64,000 bases of DNA from Thermobifida halotolerans (GTDB taxonomy: Bacteria; Actinomycetota; Actinomycetes; Streptosporangiales; Streptosporangiaceae), in contig NZ_CP063196.1 in NCBI RefSeq assembly GCF_003574835.2, forward strand, positions 4,216,001 to 4,280,000, in the 5' to 3' direction. The notes beneath the pieces are model-generated. The model worked only from the letters and a program-made list of their open reading frames with translations, did no database searches and was not told the DNA's origin. Each line of letters opens with the position of its first letter. Positions within the stretch are counted from its first letter, which is position 1. The translations under genes and the position numbers were made by a program. Positions 50,642-64,000 of the stretch are shown piece after piece.

Positions 50642-51307
50642 TCAGATCTCGTTCTTCGCCCGCAACTGCGCGACGAGCACCGCCGCCTGGGTGCGACGCT
50701 TGAGGTCGAGCTTCCCCAGGAGGCTGGAGACGTAGTTCTTCACGGTCTTCTCCGCGAGGAAGAGCCGCTCCCCGATCTGCCGGTTGGTCAGGCCCTCCCC
50801 GATGAGGTCGAGGATCTGCCGTTCCTGCGGGGTGAGCACGGCGAGCGGGTCGGGCCTGCCGCTGTTCTCACGCAGCCGCTCCAGCATGCGTCCGGTGCTT
50901 CGCGGATCGAGCAGCGAACCGCCCGCCGCGACCGTGCGCACCGCTCCGACCAGGTCGGATCCGTGGATCTGCTTGAGCACGTATCCGGCGGCGCCCGCCA
51001 TGACCGCTTCGAACAGCGCCTCGTCGTCGGCGAAGGAGGTGAGCATCAGGCAGGCGATCTCGGGGTGACCGGACCGGATCTCGCGGCACACCTCGACCCC
51101 GGAACCGTCGGGCAGCCGCACGTCGAGCACCGCCACGTCCGGCCTGACCACGGGAATCCGGTGCAGCGCCCGCTCCGCGGTACCGGCCTCGCCGACCACC
51201 CGCAGGTCGCCCTCGTCCTCCAGCAGCGAGGCGACGCCTCTGCGCACCACCTCGTGGTCGTCGACCAGAAACACCCTGATCGGGTCAGGCGTGCTCGCCT
51301 GCGGCAT
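50642..51307 (-). CDS. DevR/NarL-type response regulator
   Basis: A 221-aa two-component regulator. Receiver: RVFLVDDHEVVRRGVASLLE, VAVLDVRLPDGSG with the phospho-Asp, LMLTSFADD, and GYVLKQIHG with the conserved Lys. C-terminal GerE helix-turn-helix: LTPQERQILDLIGEGLTNRQIGERLFLAEKTVKNYVSSLLGKL, then KRRTQAAVL. It looks most like DevR/DosR of the hypoxia response. ATG after GGGAGG. No sensor kinase is adjacent. The two tandem 245-bp repeats lie immediately upstream on its 5' side. Confidence 0.9.
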   Translation of the reverse strand: MPQASTPDPIRVFLVDDHEVVRRGVASLLEDEGDLRVVGEAGTAERALHRIPVVRPDVAVLDVRLPDGSGVEVCREIRSGHPEIACLMLTSFADDEALFEAVMAGAAGYVLKQIHGSDLVGAVRTVAAGGSLLDPRSTGRMLERLRENSGRPDPLAVLTPQERQILDLIGEGLTNRQIGERLFLAEKTVKNYVSSLLGKLDLKRRTQAAVLVAQLRAKNEI

Positions 51308-51436
51308 GGCTGCCTCCCTGGTTCTGTCTCCTCCCTTCGACCGTAGCGGCCCCGGTGCGGGGGCGCCGCGCCGAACGACTCGATTACCACTGCCAAAGGT
51401 CCCGAACCCGGTGCCCGCCACCCGGTGGAGCCCTCT

Positions 51437-51681
51437 CGGGCGCACCGGAGGCGCGGGAGAAAAAAGTTTCCGGCTGGGGAATGATGCGAGTAGCCACCCT
51501 GTTGTGCAGGGTGTGGGTCGGTGCGGTAGCAAGTGTCCCCCGGGCTCCAACCCTTAGCCTTCGCGGAATACCGCGTCCGGACACCACCTCGGTGGCGTCC
51601 CGGACGGTCTCCGGAGCCGCGTTGCGCACTCCGCCGTGAGGCGACCGCCGCACCAACCCACAGCAGTGAAGACCCCGCCGG
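51437..51681. repeat. Tandem 245-bp duplication, copy 1
   Basis: Identical, as far as read, to 51696-51940; the period is 259 bp with 14 bp between copies. Hairpins inside each unit: CACCCTG-TTGTG-CAGGGTG; GCGG-AATA-CCGC; and a longer stem GTCCGGACACCACC with GGTGGCGTCCCGGAC. An A-run (GAGAAAAAAGTTTCC) opens the unit. Copy 1 carries only the left half of the downstream terminator stem. It lies between the DevR-like gene (5' side) and the aldehyde dehydrogenase gene (3' side). Confidence 0.9.
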
Positions 51682-51695
51682 CGACCTCCCGCCCA

Positions 51696-51940
51696 CGGGC
51701 GCACCGGAGGCGCGGGAGAAAAAAGTTTCCGGCTGGGGAATGATGCGAGTAGCCACCCTGTTGTGCAGGGTGTGGGTCGGTGCGGTAGCAAGTGTCCCCC
51801 GGGCTCCAACCCTTAGCCTTCGCGGAATACCGCGTCCGGACACCACCTCGGTGGCGTCCCGGACGGTCTCCGGAGCCGCGTTGCGCACTCCGCCGTGAGG
51901 CGACCGCCGCACCAACCCACAGCAGTGAAGACCCCGCCGG
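51696..51940. repeat. Tandem 245-bp duplication, copy 2
   Basis: Second unit; same internal hairpins as copy 1. Its right end is the left arm of the complete hairpin at 51927-51961. A 52-codon plus-strand frame (starting MMRVATLLCRVWVG) after GGCTGGGGA is present in both copies but has no recognised relatives. The unit could be a small structured RNA with the hairpin as its terminator, or a duplicated promoter/leader for the DevR-like gene. Confidence 0.9.
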
Positions 51941-53621: not shown

Positions 53622-53694
53622 GCACTCGTAGCTCAACGGATAGAGCATCTGACTACGGATCAGAAGGTTGGGGGTTCGAATCCCTCCGAGTGCG
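53622..53694 (+). tRNA. tRNA-Arg (ACG)
   Basis: 73 nt: acceptor GCACTCG/CGAGTGC, D-arm AGCTCAACGGATAGAGC, anticodon stem TCTGA/TCAGA enclosing CTACGGA (ACG at 53655-53657), T-arm GGGGGTTCGAATCCCTC. CCA not encoded. Marks the left edge of the island that follows. Confidence 0.95.
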
Positions 53695-53715
53695 CTCGCT
53701 GAGACCAGCTAGACC

Positions 53716-54469: not shown

Positions 54470-54955
54470 TCAGCGTTCGGCTGACAGGCCAACGGTTTTG
54501 AGGTAGTCGTCCAGGGGGATCGCGGCGGTCTGGGCGGTGCGCCGCCAGTCGGCGTGCTGGGCGGCGCGAGCTGGATCGGCGAACTCGACGCCGAGGAACT
54601 CGCCGTCGTCGTCGTAGTGGAGCAGTGCCGAGCGTTCGTCGTCGAACAGCCAGTAGTCCTCCCCGTCGGGCAGGCCCAGCGAGTCGGCGGTTGCCCTGCT
54701 GAGGATGCGTACGTCCTCTCCGGCGTCGACGCTGGAGGGGTAGGCGCAGGTGAGTTCGAACTTCAGGTAGTCGGTCAGTTCGTCGGGGACGATGTGGACG
54801 CGGCCTATGCCGCGTCCGCTGGTTCGGATGTCGCGGACCAGTCGCTGCCAGGGGCGCCGCCACCCCAGGTCCTGGGGGAGACCCGCCAGGAAACGGCGGT
54901 AGGGTTCGCGTTCGTTGCCGGCCACATAGGCGTCGAGGGTTTCCAGGCGGAACAC
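54470..54955 (-). CDS. DUF6879-family protein
   Basis: A 161-aa protein with the DUF6879 layout: FRLETLDAYVAGNEREPYRRFLAGLP, RLVRDIRTSGRGIGRVHIVPDELTDYLKFELTCAYPSSVDAGEDVRIL, and LPDGEDYWLFDDERSALLHYDDDGEFLGVEF, then an AIPLDDYLK end. Actinomycete genes of this type sit beside XRE regulators and DUF397 genes; here only the DUF397 gene is present downstream and the regulator is absent. GTG start without a strong ribosome site. Function unknown. Confidence 0.75.
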   Translation of the reverse strand: MFRLETLDAYVAGNEREPYRRFLAGLPQDLGWRRPWQRLVRDIRTSGRGIGRVHIVPDELTDYLKFELTCAYPSSVDAGEDVRILSRATADSLGLPDGEDYWLFDDERSALLHYDDDGEFLGVEFADPARAAQHADWRRTAQTAAIPLDDYLKTVGLSAER

Positions 54956-56328: not shown

Positions 56329-56760
56329 ATGGCACCCGTGGCAGGCAACGGATGGACCCCAACCGAGAAGGGCGCCCACCTACGTGGCAGGCGGACCAGC
56401 AACACCAAACCCGAGGTTGATCTGCGACGTGCGGTGCATGCGCTGGGGCTGAGGTTTCGGCTGCACCAGCGCGTTGTCGGCCGCTGCACCCCCGACTTCG
56501 TGCTTCCCCGGTGGAGGCTTGCGGTCTTCGTCGACGGGTGCTTCTGGCACGGCTGCCCGAAACACTCACCCGCCGAGTTCAGGGGGCCGAACGCCGAGAA
56601 GTGGCGGGAGAAGATCGACACCAACCGTGTCCGTGACCTCCGGAACAACTCCCTGCTGGAGGAGGCCGGCTGGCGGGTCCTCCGTGTGTGGGAGTGTGAG
56701 GTCAAACGGAGCCCCACGGAGGCTGCCAGACGCGTGGAGGCGGCTGCCAGGGCTCAGTAG
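56329..56760 (+). CDS. vsr: Very-short-patch-repair (Vsr) endonuclease
   Basis: A 143-aa PD-(D/E)XK-like nuclease that nicks DNA at T:G mismatches arising from deamination of 5-methylcytosine made by a partner methyltransferase. Seen: RRTSNTKPEVDLRRAVHALGLRFRLHQ, CTPDFVLPRWRLAVFVDGCFWHGCP with the catalytic Asp and the Zn-site Cys/His, and NRVRDLRNNSLLEEAGWRVLRVWECE. Full length. It converges with, and overlaps by 7 bp, the cytosine methyltransferase gene, as expected of a Dcm/Vsr pair. Confidence 0.92.
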   Translation: MAPVAGNGWTPTEKGAHLRGRRTSNTKPEVDLRRAVHALGLRFRLHQRVVGRCTPDFVLPRWRLAVFVDGCFWHGCPKHSPAEFRGPNAEKWREKIDTNRVRDLRNNSLLEEAGWRVLRVWECEVKRSPTEAARRVEAAARAQ

Positions 56761-58628
56761 AGCGTCTCCGGACTCCTGTTCCTCTCGGCGAATCGACACC
56801 AGTTCTGTAGCGGGCAACCACTGCACAGCGGCTTCTTGGGAAGACAGTTCGTGTATGAGAGATGCCGGAGTGCTGCCATGCGCACCGGAGCATCCTCACC
56901 GCCACCGATCAGACGGGCGATCTCGACACGTCCGTCGGTGAGCCGGTTGATCTGGTCCGACATACTGCCGAAGACCCTTGCCGCCGATCTCAGCGGCCCC
57001 TGGCCGGCGAGCATGACATCCTCTCCCATCAGCAACCGGAAGAGGGCCTTCTCCGCCGGTTTGAGACCGAGCACGCCAACGAGTTTGTCGGTGTCCCCCC
57101 AGACACCCTCCTCTGCTGTTGCCTTCTCGATCTGCTTGAGACGTTCCTTCGTACGGTCGTTGCGGACGGTGTCACGGAGGATACGGAACTCCTCCGCGGT
57201 GATCCTGACCTTTCCCCTGAGTCGTTCGAGCAGCCATCCGAGGTTGTGTGTCTCGGTCCGTTCAGGGCCGACAAGTGACACCACCAAGGCCACCGCCTGC
57301 TTCACGTCGGGCCCCGGATAGAGAAACCACGATCTTACGTTCCGTTGCCGAAGCCCCCAATCCACCAGTTCCCGATGCAACTCCAGCCAGGTGTTCCTGA
57401 CGGGCTTCCCACCCGGAGAGGGTCTGACGACCGTGGCTGCGGCCTCCCCGAGTCGGGGAGGCACAGCATTGCCGATCTGACGGAAAGCGTCGCTACGGGT
57501 CCCCGCGAAGCGGAAGTGGTCGGGAAAGGTCTGGATACGGGCGGCTTCCCGCACTGTGAGGGTCCTGTGCTGCTCGGGATGGATGTACCAGTATCCGTCC
57601 TTGGCGATGTGGGCCGTGATGGCTCTGCTGAAGCTGTTCCCGTCCAGCCGCTTGTACTTGTCGTCGAAACTGTCAGCCCTGTAGCGGCGCAGATTCTCGG
57701 GGATGTCCGAGTACAGGGTCTCGTGGGTCATGAGTTTGAAGACCTCGAGGTCGTCCGGTCGGACCGGCCTCGTCATGTGGTCGTGGACGACGTTGGACTC
57801 CGTGACTTCCTTCCTCATGAACCGCACGAACTGTGATGGTTCCTCCGGAGGTGTGTAGGGCAACTCTCTGGCACCCACGGGATTGTCCTCGGGAAGTTCG
57901 GGAAGGTCGCTGATCGCCTCGTTGAGATACACCGGGGTTGTCTGCTCGGGCCAGTCGAAGTTCTCACTGTCTCGCCGTGCCAGGAGGATCAGTCTTTTGC
58001 GGTGCTGGGGTACTCCGTACCTCCAGGCGTCGACCAGCCGCACCTGGACGAAGTATCCGTTGTTCTCCAGGGACTCGGTGATGGTCCGGACCACGCGGAA
58101 GTCGTCACCGAGCGCCATGTCGGGGACGTTCTCCATCAGCACAGCGCGCGGTCCGACCTGCACAACGACGTCGAGGAAGGCACGCCACAGCTCTTTACGC
58201 AGGTCTTCGGGATCCCTTGCCCCGGCTTCGACCAGACTTCTGATCTTGCTACGTCCGGCCCTGCTGAACGGTTGACAGGGCGGACCTCCGGCGATCAGAT
58301 CGATCGACGTCTGCCTGAACAGGGTGATGAGCCGTTCCCGCTGCTCCGGTTCACCGAGGTCAACCTTCAGCGCGAGCCCCGGGAAGTTCGCCCTGTGGGT
58401 CTCCAGCGCGCGCTGGTCGAAGTCGACCGACGCCGCAACGGTCCAACCCGCGTTCTCGAGGCCGAGGCTCAGCCCTCCTGCCCCCGAGAAGAGGTCCACG
58501 GCAAGAGGGGCCCCCGCACGGATCCTTTCCTCACACCAGGTGAGAAAGGTTTCCTCGGTACAAGCCTCGGGATGCTCGCCGAGTTGGAGTACGTCACTGC
58601 GGTGCAGTTTCACTCCGTAGAACGACAC
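56754..58628 (-). CDS. C5-cytosine DNA methyltransferase fused to an EndoIII-like iron-sulfur domain
   Basis: A 624-aa protein. Residues ~40-410 are a C5-cytosine methyltransferase: VDLFSGAGGLSLGLENAGW (AdoMet, motif I), AGGPPCQPFSRAGR (motif IV, nucleophilic Cys ~118), MENVP (VI), GVPQHRKRLILLARR (VIII) and RQIGNAVPPRLG (X). Residues ~420-624 are extra: an HhH-like GLKPAEKALFRLLMG, and near the end Cys595-X6-Cys602-X2-Cys605-X5-Cys611, the [4Fe-4S] loop spacing of endonuclease III/MutY. The usual catalytic Lys and Asp are not evident, so this part may only bind DNA. The GTG at 58628 has GAGGAG upstream. Confidence 0.88.
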   Translation of the reverse strand: MSFYGVKLHRSDVLQLGEHPEACTEETFLTWCEERIRAGAPLAVDLFSGAGGLSLGLENAGWTVAASVDFDQRALETHRANFPGLALKVDLGEPEQRERLITLFRQTSIDLIAGGPPCQPFSRAGRSKIRSLVEAGARDPEDLRKELWRAFLDVVVQVGPRAVLMENVPDMALGDDFRVVRTITESLENNGYFVQVRLVDAWRYGVPQHRKRLILLARRDSENFDWPEQTTPVYLNEAISDLPELPEDNPVGARELPYTPPEEPSQFVRFMRKEVTESNVVHDHMTRPVRPDDLEVFKLMTHETLYSDIPENLRRYRADSFDDKYKRLDGNSFSRAITAHIAKDGYWYIHPEQHRTLTVREAARIQTFPDHFRFAGTRSDAFRQIGNAVPPRLGEAAATVVRPSPGGKPVRNTWLELHRELVDWGLRQRNVRSWFLYPGPDVKQAVALVVSLVGPERTETHNLGWLLERLRGKVRITAEEFRILRDTVRNDRTKERLKQIEKATAEEGVWGDTDKLVGVLGLKPAEKALFRLLMGEDVMLAGQGPLRSAARVFGSMSDQINRLTDGRVEIARLIGGGEDAPVRMAALRHLSYTNCLPKKPLCSGCPLQNWCRFAERNRSPETLY

Positions 58629-58873
58629 CCGGGCCTCCTCGTCAGGGATCAGTTCAGTGAGCACCAGGACAACACAGAGCCCCCTGGGATACAAGTCTCT
58701 CCGGAATACCTGGGGACAGGGGAGTGCTCTCCGGTTCCGGGGAGGCTGTGGGTGGGCGTCAGGTGTCCGGCCATACCGGGTTGTGCCCGTAGGTGGGGTA
58801 CGGATCACCCCGTGAGTTGCCCACCGCCCCACACAGCAGTCGAAAACACTACTGCCCGAAGGTCAAGATCGGA

Positions 58874-60634
58874 CTACTTTTTCTGCTGTCGGGCGATGGT
58901 GGGCGACGGACCTCCCCACCTGATGTCGAGAACGCTCTTCCAGCAGTCCTCCTTCTTGCACCACTCCGTCACATTGCCCGCCCCCGGAGCGGCGAGGAGC
59001 ACCCTGCGTACAGGGCCGCTCAGTTCCTGCACGGCCCTGATGACCTCGGCGGGTACTTCCTGTTGCTTCCACGTCAGAGCAAAGACCTTCTCCAGATCGA
59101 TGTCCTCGACCAGCCTGGCGAGTGTGTACGTGGTGACGTTGGCCAGGTAGCCCGCTTTCGGGTTCAGCCTGTTGATTTCGCTCCGTGCTCCCTCGAAGAG
59201 GATCCTCTTCGCGACCAACTTCCGGAAGTACTCGTCATCCGGGACACCCGTGAAATTCGACACCACCTCAGAGGTCCAGCGCTGGAAACACTTCTGTGCC
59301 CCAAGGCTGACCACGTGCGGTGCCTGTCGGAACGTCATCTCGTACTTGGCAGCGTCGGTCTTGGTGAAGCGCTGTTGCCTCGGGTACTCGGCAGCGAAGG
59401 CCCTCTTCTGGGCAGCCGTGGGGCGACGGCTCTTGTCCACGTCGTACTGCCCCCGGGCACGCTCGTAGTACCAACGACTCTGACGTGTGCCTCCCGCAAC
59501 GGCCGGGGCCCAGACCCTTCGGGACGCCCGTTCCAACTCGACGTGGAAAGGGCTGTTCGCCTCGAAGTCCGCCTCGTTGATCGTGTTCTGGGAGTTGGCA
59601 TACCTGGAGATGTTCGGCACGAGTTCGTCGAGCAACCCCGCACGGACGACCGTGATCTTCGCTGTTACCCAGATCCTGCTGAGGTCCGCACGGCTTCGTT
59701 TGGCAGCGTGGTGGAGCGAGGCGGTCGTCTGACCTCCGTTGACAATCTGGAGGTCGTCCAGCCGGACGATACGGGTCTTCTCCCCGTCGAACTCGACACC
59801 CGTGGCCGTTGCGGAGATTCCGTTGTTGTACGCCAGGAACCGTTCGGGGGCTGTACGGATCGTCTCGTTGATCCCCTTGTTGACCTTGCCCCGCAACTGC
59901 AGGAAGGAGCGGACGTTCCTCTGGAGGAGTTTTGCGCCGTACAACTCGTACATGTCGGCGAGTACCTGTCCGGGAATGACCGTCAGAAGACACTGGTAAT
60001 CGTCTTCTCCGGTGGATGCAGGAAGACAGGGCAGCGGCCCGCCCAACTCGGTGAAATCGACGGAGATGGGCTCCTCGTGTCTCCCCGATGTCGCCAGTCG
60101 CCGGATCCGTTCGATGTCCCACAGGTCCTGGACGACGGGGATTCCCCCAAGTTCGCTCTGGGGAAGGTTGTCGAAGGTGCTACGGCCATCTGTGAGCAGG
60201 AAGATCCGGATCTTGTCGAAATCTGACCACTGGGAGTGAATCTTCTGGGCCATGTCGAACTCGGGAGTGGATTCGTCCATCTCCCGATGGTGTCCGTCGC
60301 GGCAGGCTTCTGCGAACAGCTCCGCCCACCTGAACCGCTTTCTCACCTGGTCGCGGGAGACGGTCTGACCGTAGTTCCCGTAATCCGCAACCACGAGGTC
60401 CAGTACATGCCCGTCGTCGCTGATCGCATAGCCGGACACCTCCACCCGGCTCCGTCCGTACGGATGGACGTAGTAGCAGACGTACAGATCCTCCAGGGTT
60501 CCGTCCTCGATCAGGTACTCACTGACCACCTGAACGAAGACGTCACGTTTGTGCAGACCCGACTCCTCGTTGAGGCGGTCGTCCACGGCCTGCTCGAGGC
60601 TGATGGCGAACTCTTCGACCGATGCGCCCTGCAC
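58874..60634 (-). CDS. AIPR-family (abortive-infection phage-resistance) protein
   Basis: A 586-aa protein with the AIPR domain at ~230-480: KLLQRNVRSFLQLRGKVNKGINETI, then a PERFLAYNNGISATA segment and LDDLQIVNGGQTTASLHHA, followed by ISRYANSQNTINEADF. The N-terminal part (SLEQAVDDRLN; GYAISDDGHVLDLVVADY) is an extra domain seen in many members. AIPR proteins occur with restriction-modification and phage-defence genes, and the conserved D/NGGQTT core suggests a nucleic-acid enzyme. GTG start with AAGGAG upstream, 3 bp after the DUF4420-like gene. Confidence 0.88.
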   Translation of the reverse strand: MQGASVEEFAISLEQAVDDRLNEESGLHKRDVFVQVVSEYLIEDGTLEDLYVCYYVHPYGRSRVEVSGYAISDDGHVLDLVVADYGNYGQTVSRDQVRKRFRWAELFAEACRDGHHREMDESTPEFDMAQKIHSQWSDFDKIRIFLLTDGRSTFDNLPQSELGGIPVVQDLWDIERIRRLATSGRHEEPISVDFTELGGPLPCLPASTGEDDYQCLLTVIPGQVLADMYELYGAKLLQRNVRSFLQLRGKVNKGINETIRTAPERFLAYNNGISATATGVEFDGEKTRIVRLDDLQIVNGGQTTASLHHAAKRSRADLSRIWVTAKITVVRAGLLDELVPNISRYANSQNTINEADFEANSPFHVELERASRRVWAPAVAGGTRQSRWYYERARGQYDVDKSRRPTAAQKRAFAAEYPRQQRFTKTDAAKYEMTFRQAPHVVSLGAQKCFQRWTSEVVSNFTGVPDDEYFRKLVAKRILFEGARSEINRLNPKAGYLANVTTYTLARLVEDIDLEKVFALTWKQQEVPAEVIRAVQELSGPVRRVLLAAPGAGNVTEWCKKEDCWKSVLDIRWGGPSPTIARQQKK

Positions 60635-60637
60635 CCA

Positions 60638-61627
60638 CTACTCCTTCGCCTGGTTCGTCCGCGCGACCACTGCTCGCACCGTCTCCTCGTCCACCTGGTG
60701 TGAGCCGCATACTGCCAGACTGACAAGGTATGACACACCGGACACCGCTGGAGGAAGGTCTGCGGGGGTCACCCGTGGAAAAGTGTCAGTCACGGAGAAA
60801 CACCGTCTTCGGACCAGCGCATACCTGTCACCGGCGTACTGGCTGCGGTGAACATCCAGCCATCCCGCCTGGAGCAGGCAGTTCTCGAAATGGGGGAGCT
60901 CTGCCCGTACTTCCGGAGCGCAACGGAGGTCATCGACCAACTCCTCGAGCAGGACGCCGTCCGACGACGTTCCCACCACCTGGTGAACCAGGAAGAGATC
61001 GGTCAGCCCAGTCGAGTCCAACTGGCGCTCGTGGCTGATCCGGCACCGCTCCGGCTCCCTGCTGGAGACGGTTTTGACCTCGATCGCAACCGGAGGAAGC
61101 ACGAAGTCCTTGGCTCCTCCGGAGGGACCCACCCAGGCCCTGACTGCTGCCTCTCCCAGTGTGGGAAGCAGTACCTCACGGAGCACGACCAGCTCACCGT
61201 ACAGACCGAGGCGTTGCTCGGGGGTCAGACCGGTGTGCAGGCCGCGGCCGAGCATTCGGCGCCAGGCTCTGATCCTGTGAGCCAGTGCGCTCACCGGTGT
61301 TCTCGTGGATGTCTCCAACTGCTTGACAATGTCGGCGAGGAGGGTACAGAACAGCAGCCGGTCGGTTCCCGACTCCGCTATGACCTCAACCGAACCGTTC
61401 TTCGTCCGACAGGTCAGCCCTGTTGTCAGAATGATGTCCTGGTCCTCGGTCCGCTCGTCACTGCCGACCAGGAGCACCCACTCCCGGCTGGGAAAGCGGA
61501 CCTCCGTGAAGACGTCCAGTTCGGAATCCGGGATGAGTCGACGGCGGATTGCTCCCGGGCCGACACATCCATTCGCCTCGGCCTCACGGAAGGACGCCTC
61601 AAGCTGCTCGGGTGTGGCGGAGGCCAT
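60638..61627 (-). CDS. PD-(D/E)XK motif (DUF4420-like) nuclease
   Basis: A 329-aa protein. Residues 1-~120 are an N-terminal domain; then RLGLYGELVVLREVLLP and WVGPSGGAKDFVLPPVAIEVKTVSS give the E, the D and E-V-K catalytic residues of a PD-(D/E)XK fold. LFLVHQVV and a helical C-terminus follow. This is the layout of DUF4420-type nucleases found next to Z1 helicases. The ATG overlaps the Z1 gene's stop (TGATG), so translation is coupled. Probably the DNA-cutting component of the system. Confidence 0.88.
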   Translation of the reverse strand: MASATPEQLEASFREAEANGCVGPGAIRRRLIPDSELDVFTEVRFPSREWVLLVGSDERTEDQDIILTTGLTCRTKNGSVEVIAESGTDRLLFCTLLADIVKQLETSTRTPVSALAHRIRAWRRMLGRGLHTGLTPEQRLGLYGELVVLREVLLPTLGEAAVRAWVGPSGGAKDFVLPPVAIEVKTVSSREPERCRISHERQLDSTGLTDLFLVHQVVGTSSDGVLLEELVDDLRCAPEVRAELPHFENCLLQAGWLDVHRSQYAGDRYALVRRRCFSVTDTFPRVTPADLPPAVSGVSYLVSLAVCGSHQVDEETVRAVVARTNQAKE

Positions 61628-64000
61628 CACTCCTCACCGTCCCCCGAGTCCTCGACGGCCTTCCTGAGCGATTCCAGGAACACCTCGTTAACCCGGTAAC
61701 TGATCCTCTCGGCCTGTTCGGAGTGGGGGAAGACAACCGCGTACCCGATGACCGGAAGCCCCGGAGCCCCAACCTCGATCTCCGAGGCGGCTGGGTCTAT
61801 GGGGTAGAGCAGCAGAAGCCCCTCCCCGGGATCCCGAACCCTGCGCAGAGCGTCTCCACTCGCCCGTTTGGGCTCCCGTCCCCGCCCGCTTCTGTGGAAC
61901 TCGTCAACCGTCCTCTCGAAAGCCCTGTTCTTCGCGGAAGGAGCGAGTCCCAGCGCCTCGTGGGCCGGGCTGACGAGAACGCCAACCTCGCACTCCCCGT
62001 CCAGCACCCGGGCGTGGGTGATGGTCCGGCGTTTGATCAGCGGGATGTCGACGTCCTGAACGGGCAACGGTTTCTTGGAACTGCCTCCCGTGATTCCCAC
62101 CACCCAACGAACGAGTTCTCCCCTGGCTGTCTGCTTCCGGATGTAGGAGAGAAGGTTGTCCGGATTGGCGGTGAGGACACGGGGCGAAACGTGGAAACCC
62201 TCCAGGAACTCCACAACGGCTTCGGGTGGGACGTTCCGACGGAACAGGCCCCTTCCTGCACCGTGTAGCCGTTCCTCCGGCACGGGGTCGAGCGGAAGGA
62301 TCCGCTCGACGAGCCGTTGCAGACGTTCGTGACCGTCCTCCTGGGCCTTTCTGTCTGTCCGCATAACCAGCGTCTCCGCCCTGGTCCCGGCCAGGCTCAC
62401 CTTCATCGCCGTGGACGAGCGCATCTTGGCTGCCGCCGTGACCTGGAGGTTGCCTGTCCCCTCCCGTATGCGCAGCCCAACGTCTCCGGGAGTCTTCTGT
62501 GCTCTGGAGATGGCGGCGGTGAGGTCCATCAGTTCCCGGTTGGCCCGGGTGATGTGGACGTAGTAGTTGATCAGCTCTCTGGTGGTGTACAGCCGGATGA
62601 CGTCCAGGTATCCGGGACGGTAACCGAACCAGCGTCCCATCTGGAGCAGGGTGTCGTAGGTTCTGGAAGCCCGCAGGTAGTAGGAGACGGTGAGGCCCTC
62701 CAGGGTCAGCCCCCGGGAGAGTTTGTCGCCTCCGACCGCAACCACGGTGACCGGGGTACTCGACTGGTAGTCGAGTACGTCGGCGACGCTGCCGTTGATC
62801 CGCTTCACGTTGGCAGCGGCCTCGTCCAACACGTGGGGGACAAAACTCTCGATGTCCTCCCAGGACACCCGGGGTCCGACCTGGGCACTGACGTCATCGC
62901 GGTTGGCGATCTCCTCGTGGGTCGGAACGAAATCCCTCTTCCACAGGTCGGTCAGCCGTTCCTGCAGAGCGATCCCGGCGTCCCCGTAGTCCCCCCAGGA
63001 GTCCGCCATGCGCCGCAGATGGTGCTCGATCTGACGGGCGACCTCGCCCTGGACGTCCGTGAACCGGGTCACGTGGACGAGCATGGTGTTGTGTCCACCG
63101 ACTTCGCCGTTGTTCCTCTCCCGGGCCTTCCGGATCGCCGTGGCCAACACGAAGGCGTCCAGCGCCTCCACCAGCGACCCCGGAAGCGACACGTCGGGAA
63201 CATGGCCCTTCCTGTGACCGTCCGGCATCCAGTCCCTGTGGTCACCGACCTCGTGAACGATGGGGAGTGGCTCACGGATGTCCGCCGCGGTGGGATCCTC
63301 CAACCCGAAGACGAGTTCCGGGCCGCAGTAGTTCGACGGGGGTTCCAGTGTGACGAGGAAGCTCCGTGGAAACAGGTCCTCGCCGTGCTCAGGGTGGTCT
63401 GTGCTGTGGGGGATGAAGATGTTCGCGAAGGGCGTCGCCGTGTATCCCAGGTACGCCCGCTTCTCGAACAACTCCAGCAGCCCCCGGATGGCCTTGTTGA
63501 TCGCGGTGGGGTCGTGCTCGGGGTCGCTGTGGTCTCCTCCCCTGGTGGGGCGTTTCGTGTCCACCGAGGCGTAGTCGGCCTCGTCGTCGATGAGGAGGAG
63601 CGGTGCTCCCCCTACCAGCTTCGGCTCTCCCTGCGGGCCTGAGGCGAAGTTCCCCAACCAGTCTCTGAGGTTGGCCAGGATCCGCGCGTTCTTCTTGGCG
63701 ACAACGAGTATCGGCACCTCGTGGATGTTGACCGGTGTTCCCTGGAACTGTGCCGTGGTGAAATCACTGTCCTGCGTCGTCACCGGTATACAGATGGTCG
63801 ACACCCTGCCCAGGTTGCCGACACCGATGTCCATGGAACTGTCACTGGTCCGGTCGCGGCTGAACCTGCTGTTGAAGCCCAGGAACTCCAGATCCAGCCT
63901 CGCCTGGGTCTGGTGCCGGAGACTCTCGTGCTGGCTGGTGAGCACGATGATGACCCGGTAGCCGGCATCCACCGCCTTACAGATCACACCGGTGTAGTTG
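61627..64000 (-). CDS. Z1-domain SF2-like helicase/ATPase (partial, runs off right edge)
   Basis: At least 790 residues; the frame is open to the window edge and the first visible residues (NYTGVICKAVDAGYRVIIVLT) follow directly on a Walker-A-type helix in relatives, so the P-loop lies just outside. Seen: LLLIDDEADYAS (motif II), YLGYTATPFANIF (motif III), NTMLVHVTRFTDVQ, VVAVGGDKLSRGLTLEGL (motif V), and SRTYDTLLQMGRWFGYR (motif VI, Arg fingers). Z1 proteins are ATP-driven partners of methylase-linked defence operons. First of three overlapping or abutting genes (Z1, nuclease, AIPR). Confidence 0.9.
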   Translation of the reverse strand, partial: NYTGVICKAVDAGYRVIIVLTSQHESLRHQTQARLDLEFLGFNSRFSRDRTSDSSMDIGVGNLGRVSTICIPVTTQDSDFTTAQFQGTPVNIHEVPILVVAKKNARILANLRDWLGNFASGPQGEPKLVGGAPLLLIDDEADYASVDTKRPTRGGDHSDPEHDPTAINKAIRGLLELFEKRAYLGYTATPFANIFIPHSTDHPEHGEDLFPRSFLVTLEPPSNYCGPELVFGLEDPTAADIREPLPIVHEVGDHRDWMPDGHRKGHVPDVSLPGSLVEALDAFVLATAIRKARERNNGEVGGHNTMLVHVTRFTDVQGEVARQIEHHLRRMADSWGDYGDAGIALQERLTDLWKRDFVPTHEEIANRDDVSAQVGPRVSWEDIESFVPHVLDEAAANVKRINGSVADVLDYQSSTPVTVVAVGGDKLSRGLTLEGLTVSYYLRASRTYDTLLQMGRWFGYRPGYLDVIRLYTTRELINYYVHITRANRELMDLTAAISRAQKTPGDVGLRIREGTGNLQVTAAAKMRSSTAMKVSLAGTRAETLVMRTDRKAQEDGHERLQRLVERILPLDPVPEERLHGAGRGLFRRNVPPEAVVEFLEGFHVSPRVLTANPDNLLSYIRKQTARGELVRWVVGITGGSSKKPLPVQDVDIPLIKRRTITHARVLDGECEVGVLVSPAHEALGLAPSAKNRAFERTVDEFHRSGRGREPKRASGDALRRVRDPGEGLLLLYPIDPAASEIEVGAPGLPVIGYAVVFPHSEQAERISYRVNEVFLESLRKAVEDSGDGEE

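Follow-up and report, generated by a model that had tools for sequence, protein, structure and literature searches.

How do defence systems built from a Z1 helicase, an AIPR protein and a GHKL ATPase tell self from foreign DNA? The locus described here, from the actinobacterium Thermobifida halotolerans, offers a testable candidate for the reader: the tail of its cytosine methylase, a MutY-type domain that has lost its catalytic aspartate and kept its iron-sulfur cluster. From its sequence, and with about even confidence, we read the locus as an island-borne, methylation-gated defence against foreign DNA, in which an Mza (type II Z1) module is joined to a DrmAB core and a RadD-like helicase. 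Below, we describe the genes and the island that carries them, weigh the evidence on whether the two modules belong together, and discuss two components, MzaE and the methylase tail, before setting out the proposed working.

Gene organization of the locus

The window is the whole 64-kb stretch that was analysed, C1:4216001-4280000 of a 5.5-Mb genome. All coordinates are given in the window frame, and those above 64000 lie past the window end. The locus and its island comprise the following features.

53622..53695, + strand: tRNA-Arg (acg), the island integration site (ARAGORN); the left att copy begins at 53653, in its 3' part
56329..56760, + strand: Vsr endonuclease (PF03852 E=2.2e-19; PADLOC Vsr E=4.3e-18)
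56754..58832, - strand, likely start near 58628: C5-cytosine methylase with a C-terminal MutY-like domain (PF00145 E=4.5e-62; dcm TIGR00675)
56757..57431, - strand: methylase C-terminal domain with the MutY/MIG fold; retains the 4Fe-4S cysteines and lacks the catalytic Asp
58874..60634, - strand: AIPR protein, MzaE-like (PF10592 E=4.6e-89; PADLOC MzaE E=4.8e-86)
60638..61630, - strand: PD-(D/E)XK nuclease DUF4420, MzaD-like (PF14390 E=1.1e-62; PADLOC MzaD E=2.6e-18)
61627..64440, - strand: Z1 SF2 helicase/translocase, MzaC-like (PF10593 E=1.3e-67; PADLOC MzaC E=3.3e-148)
64437 to about 65915, - strand: MzaB GHKL ATPase (MzaB model E=1.7e-93; PF13589 E=2e-32)
66268-68043, + strand: Hel2, RadD-like SF2 helicase (profile matches)
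68093-69859, - strand: DrmB (DUF1998; DISARM model, 563 bits)
about 69860-73767, - strand: DrmA helicase (DISARM model, 1335 bits; solved DrmA E=7.7e-142)
73226-74824, + strand: divergent HNH nuclease frame
75667: right att copy

An earlier note on this DNA had named a Vsr endonuclease, a cytosine methylase, an AIPR protein, a PD-(D/E)XK nuclease and a Z1 helicase, and Pfam family matches place all five where it put them. The junctions it described are likewise borne out on the sequence: the Z1 and nuclease genes overlap in TGATG (junction sequence GAGTGATGGCC), the AIPR gene starts 3 bp past the stop of the DUF4420 nuclease gene, and Vsr converges on the methylase with a 7-bp overlap. The GHKL ATPase that it expected beyond 64 kb, if there was one, is present as MzaB, whose gene runs into the start of the Z1 gene. 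The extent that it gave to the operon was correct for these five genes but too narrow, as another ~10 kb with DrmA, DrmB and an SF2 helicase belongs to the locus, all of it inside a 22-kb island. A check of sequence motifs found methylase motifs I, IV, VI, VIII, IX and X intact, along with Walker A/B and DTLLQMGRWFG in the Z1 helicase, D..ExK in the DUF4420 nuclease, and the motifs of the GHKL protein MzaB, Hel2 and DrmA.

We annotated 80 Z1 loci from named genomes and 20 regions from an Actinobacteria survey, using profiles made from the proteins of this locus. The MzaB-C-D-E order is kept across phyla; a C5 methylase usually accompanies it, as Vsr often does. The recurrence of this order in dozens of distant loci indicates that it is not due to chance. 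Together, the family matches and this gene order point to a defence operon that is linked to a methylase and belongs to the GHKL/MORC-associated class, as had been proposed. Sequence searches found no solved relatives of MzaC, MzaD or MzaE.

A tRNA-bounded island

The genes are carried on a ~22-kb island bounded by tRNA-Arg(acg) and a partial copy of the tRNA 3' end at 75667, with an att direct repeat that is perfect over 21 bp and degenerate over about 45 bp. Congeners G414 and G415 have other elements at the same tRNA-Arg site, which marks it as an integration hotspot, and the left flank is conserved in congeners as far as the tRNA. No PF00589 match, which would indicate a tyrosine integrase of the island's own, lies between the att copies, and a search for the empty site with the joined flanks returned no genome matches across the junction. 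Within the island, there is also no PLDc_2 match for a DrmC-type PLD nuclease and no match to the MzaA model PDLC02203, which has six matches elsewhere in the genome.

At L178 and L179, from two congeners, a ~9-kb AICE-like element with the same flanking repeat occupies the same tRNA-Arg; judged by eye from their translations, its genes include integrase-like, FtsK-like and GntR-like ones. A DUF6879 gene (window 54473-54955) lies inside the present island beside the left att copy. Elsewhere in the window, a near-identical stretch at 51290-51900 appears to be tandemly repeated, and long identical peptides are shared by the ORFs at 51384-51809 and 50642-51550 and by those at 51355-51639 and 51533-51898.

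The DrmAB-Hel2 module and its join to Mza

A genome from another family of the same class (G128) carries the same nine genes—DrmA, DrmB, an opposite-strand Hel2, MzaB-C-D-E, and Vsr and methylase genes in swapped order. The two loci are 57-65% identical in DrmA, DrmB, Hel2, the methylase core and Vsr, 34-40% identical in MzaB-E and 35% identical in the tail. MzaB-E of this island share 56-70% identity with their counterparts in the Streptomyces loci L005 and L006, which have no DrmAB in the sequence examined. These mosaic identities place DrmAB-Hel2 at the same position beside two diverged Mza lineages, and the recurrence of the same nine genes in another family, with such divergence, suggests that the two modules may work together. 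The methylase matches DrmMII models (E=1.7e-84), and the Mza genes stand between its gene and DrmAB. No report of an Mza-DrmAB join was found in the open-licence literature searched; judging by titles and abstracts, the publications that name both Mza and DISARM look like surveys. If the recurrent join is functional, two systems treated as separate share parts. Annotation tools that use separate gene sets are expected to call two partial systems here.

Clustering in a defence island is a serious alternative account of this join. The locus would then hold two independent systems on one island: a full Mza-like restriction system and, beside it, a DISARM-like DrmAB-Hel2 module that draws on a methylase and a nuclease from elsewhere. 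We regard this as quite possible, at somewhat less than even confidence. Hel2, on the opposite strand, separates DrmB from MzaB, so that the DrmAB and Mza genes are not transcribed as a single unit. Among 22 actinobacterial full Mza loci, five have DrmAB within about 10 kb and 17 do not, which indicates that Mza does not require DrmAB; L006, L009, L010 and L012 have Mza and no DrmAB in the sequence examined, and Hel2-DrmAB in turn exists without Mza. DrmAB of other subfamilies also occurs near Mza in other positions, as expected in defence islands: it is directly upstream in L140 and downstream and convergent in L011 and L013, and in all three it is less similar to the present DrmAB. The mosaic divergence from G128 would fit independent histories as well. 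Two observations stand against independent systems: in two genomes of different families, DrmA, DrmB, Hel2 and MzaB-E occupy matching places and point the same way, and no methylase directly adjoins DrmAB here, whereas other Hel2-DrmAB loci mostly have one.

Hel2 is also linked to DrmAB on separate evidence: its large homologues (about 1,570 aa) have DrmA and DrmB adjoining in 16 of the 17 regions examined, and the one that was scanned has a TmtA/Sacsin-like GHKL N-terminus. Such loci apparently represent a DISARM-related system, common in Actinobacteria, which has no name as a unit among the PADLOC models. Large Hel2-type proteins lie beside DrmA-DrmB at L098:10435-17069 and L155-L171, often with a methylase and Vsr, and L098 also has a GajB/UvrD-like helicase.

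MzaE and the abortive-infection reading

The AIPR family name and annotation of MzaE invite a different account of the locus, in which MzaE would be the effector of abortive infection, killing or arresting the infected cell, while the methylase and helicases sense the infection. We consider this unlikely. The MzaE model (pLDDT 90) has no significant Foldseek match in the PDB. Its N-terminal part weakly resembles PD-(D/E)XK nucleases, namely AF1548 (Z 9.1), FokI (Z 8.6) and HamA of Hachiman (Z 7.9), a likeness in favour of this account, and its middle part has a faint likeness to ParB/SspE domains (Z 4.4-6.2). Neither structural resemblance is more than weak, however, and the PD-(D/E)XK catalytic positions are unconserved across 45 MzaE sequences, in which most of the invariant residues fall in and after the ParB/SspE-like middle domain. 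From this pattern of conservation and the predicted model, a sensor or scaffold role for MzaE appears more likely than cutting.

A MutY/MIG-type domain without its catalytic aspartate

The tail comprises the C-terminal 225 residues of the methylase, and its alignment and profile were built from 17 sequences. Over the whole domain, the profile matches MutY (E=1.2e-11) and MIG (1kea, E=1.2e-9) in the PDB. An AlphaFold2 model of the tail (pLDDT 86, pTM 0.83) resembles MutY (Z=14.9, rmsd 4.2, 201 residues), MIG (Z=12.9) and EndoIII (Z=11.5). The Pfam HhH-GPD model matches none of the 17 members, and annotation by that single model thus overlooks the domain. The earlier note spoke of an FeS-tailed methylase; the tail is no small motif but a full MutY/MIG-fold domain that lacks the catalytic Asp.

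The catalytic Asp is lost in all 27 distinct methylase-fused copies, every one of which keeps the four cluster cysteines. The position holds G, Q, S, T, R, N, A or K and never D (G in the window copy), and the five unfused glycosylases that can be aligned there all keep D. A conserved N..(T/S)(D/E)GR stretch is particular to the tail. Loss of the Asp with retention of the 4Fe-4S fold suggests that the tail should bind or scan DNA without base excision; the loss itself argues against excision, and the reader role is our proposal. Two other identities for the tail were rejected: a mere small FeS motif, as all 225 aa match MutY/MIG, and an active glycosylase, as the Asp is missing from every fused copy.

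The tail is present in most full actinobacterial Mza loci and unrecognisable in proteobacterial and Bacteroidota loci. The FeS-tailed methylase is thus usual for such systems in Actinobacteria and not, as had been supposed, a peculiarity of this locus. No report of a fusion between a methylase and a dead glycosylase was found in the open-licence literature searched, and a search with the tail against plasmids gave no match. With the tail alone as bait, six methylase-tail genes were recovered outside this genome, and each has a GHKL gene nearby; some lie within an Mza operon, and others belong to a smaller GHKL-methylase cassette that usually includes Vsr and in two cases Z1 and DUF4420.

The smaller cassette stands apart from the full Mza operons. 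It is found at L141, L153, L174-L177, L007:19130-22474 and L008:4777-8231 and consists of a GHKL ATPase and a methylase with the dead glycosylase tail, usually accompanied by Vsr and sometimes by Z1 and DUF4420. The ATPase gene of L174 encodes two HATPase domains.

In a Chloroflexota Mza locus (L025:15951-17979), the methylase frame overlaps at its end with the start of a separate HhH-GPD glycosylase whose Asp is intact, and Vsr was not seen there. This is the one locus where a stand-alone glycosylase was found beside the methylase, and the single case suggests that the tail descends from a repair glycosylase that accompanied the methylase. A rival view, in which the tail still works in repair as a T:G or 5mC glycosylase whose catalytic residue has moved elsewhere, protecting the host from 5mC deamination and duplicating Vsr, is very improbable: MIG, a thymine-DNA glycosylase, is among its closest solved relatives and the L025 glycosylase stands where Vsr was not seen, but the MutY/EndoIII-type Asp is missing throughout the fused tails, the Pfam HhH-GPD model fails to match them, and Vsr is found in many of the tail-bearing loci.

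Proposed working of the locus

From what was observed here—gene identity and order, intact and lost motifs, the predicted fold of the tail, the island ends and the recurrence of the arrangement—we infer every activity and interaction in the following mechanism. The methylase would mark host recognition sites as self, and its dead glycosylase tail would bind or scan DNA without excision and serve as the link between methylase and GHKL ATPase. On unmarked DNA, the GHKL protein would clamp and recruit the Z1 motor, after which the DUF4420 nuclease would cut. DrmAB, helped by Hel2, would engage entering or replicating phage DNA, and Vsr would mend the T:G mismatches that arise from 5mC deamination. 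DrmAB has been found to load at 5' single-stranded overhangs, and 5mC lowers its ATPase (PMC9142583); one 5mC mark could consequently license both modules.

A bolder form of this proposal, which we hold to be doubtful though worth stating, makes Mza and DISARM one working system, in which the dead FeS glycosylase would read methylation or mismatches and so license a MutL/MORC-type ATPase. Parts of mismatch repair, namely a MutY-like reader, a MutL-like clamp and a Vsr-like nickase, would then have been rebuilt as an immune sensor from which foreign DNA passes to Z1/DUF4420 and DrmAB. The recruitment of MutL-type ATPases in mismatch repair is a possible parallel.

Comparison with known systems

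The original Mza paper is reportedly Gao 2020. As in the Mza systems of PADLOC and NCBIfam, MzaB, C, D and E are contiguous here and in the same order (E 2.6e-18 to 3.3e-148). Unlike in those systems, the island is without MzaA, and a tailed methylase, Vsr and DrmAB are added; MzaE also falls below the NCBIfam equivalog level (NF041935, 399 bits against a cut-off of 1050). MzaA is given as a sigma factor in Miller 2022 (PMC9523054).

The core is of a known general type, represented by the operons of Iyer 2008 (PMC2292703), the type II system of Miller 2022 (PMC9523054) and PADLOC Mza, and it is therefore better described than the earlier note had allowed. The portion of Iyer 2008 that deals with Z1/paraMORC operons sets out Z1-type helicases, RE-fold nucleases, GHKL, Dcm, Vsr and AIPR, and the present locus shares all of these, including the SFII helicase motif DThhQxuRhFG; the glycosylase-like tail and DrmAB are features here that have no description in that portion. 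A simple pattern search for the ExxxH motif, which concerns the paraMORC2 subfamily only, found no E...H in MzaB. Miller 2022, in the portion concerned, describes a Z1-DUF-methylase system whose putative type II has AIPR and MORC-type proteins. The present locus resembles it in its core of Z1, a PD-(D/E)XK DUF and a C5 methylase, with AIPR and a MORC-type ATPase, and differs in DrmAB and the tail, which that portion does not mention.

Compared with DISARM, DrmA and DrmB are very close to the models, and the cluster includes a C5 methylase. In contrast to DISARM, DrmC is absent, the methylase lies ~10 kb off behind the Mza genes, and a RadD-like helicase is added; DrmC is often missing from DISARM and appears to be non-essential (PMC9142583). 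Finally, the methylase tail shares with the MutY/MIG glycosylases a whole-domain fold, as predicted by the model, and the 4Fe-4S cysteines. Unlike them, it has no catalytic Asp, is fused to a methylase and carries its own N..(T/S)(D/E)GR stretch.
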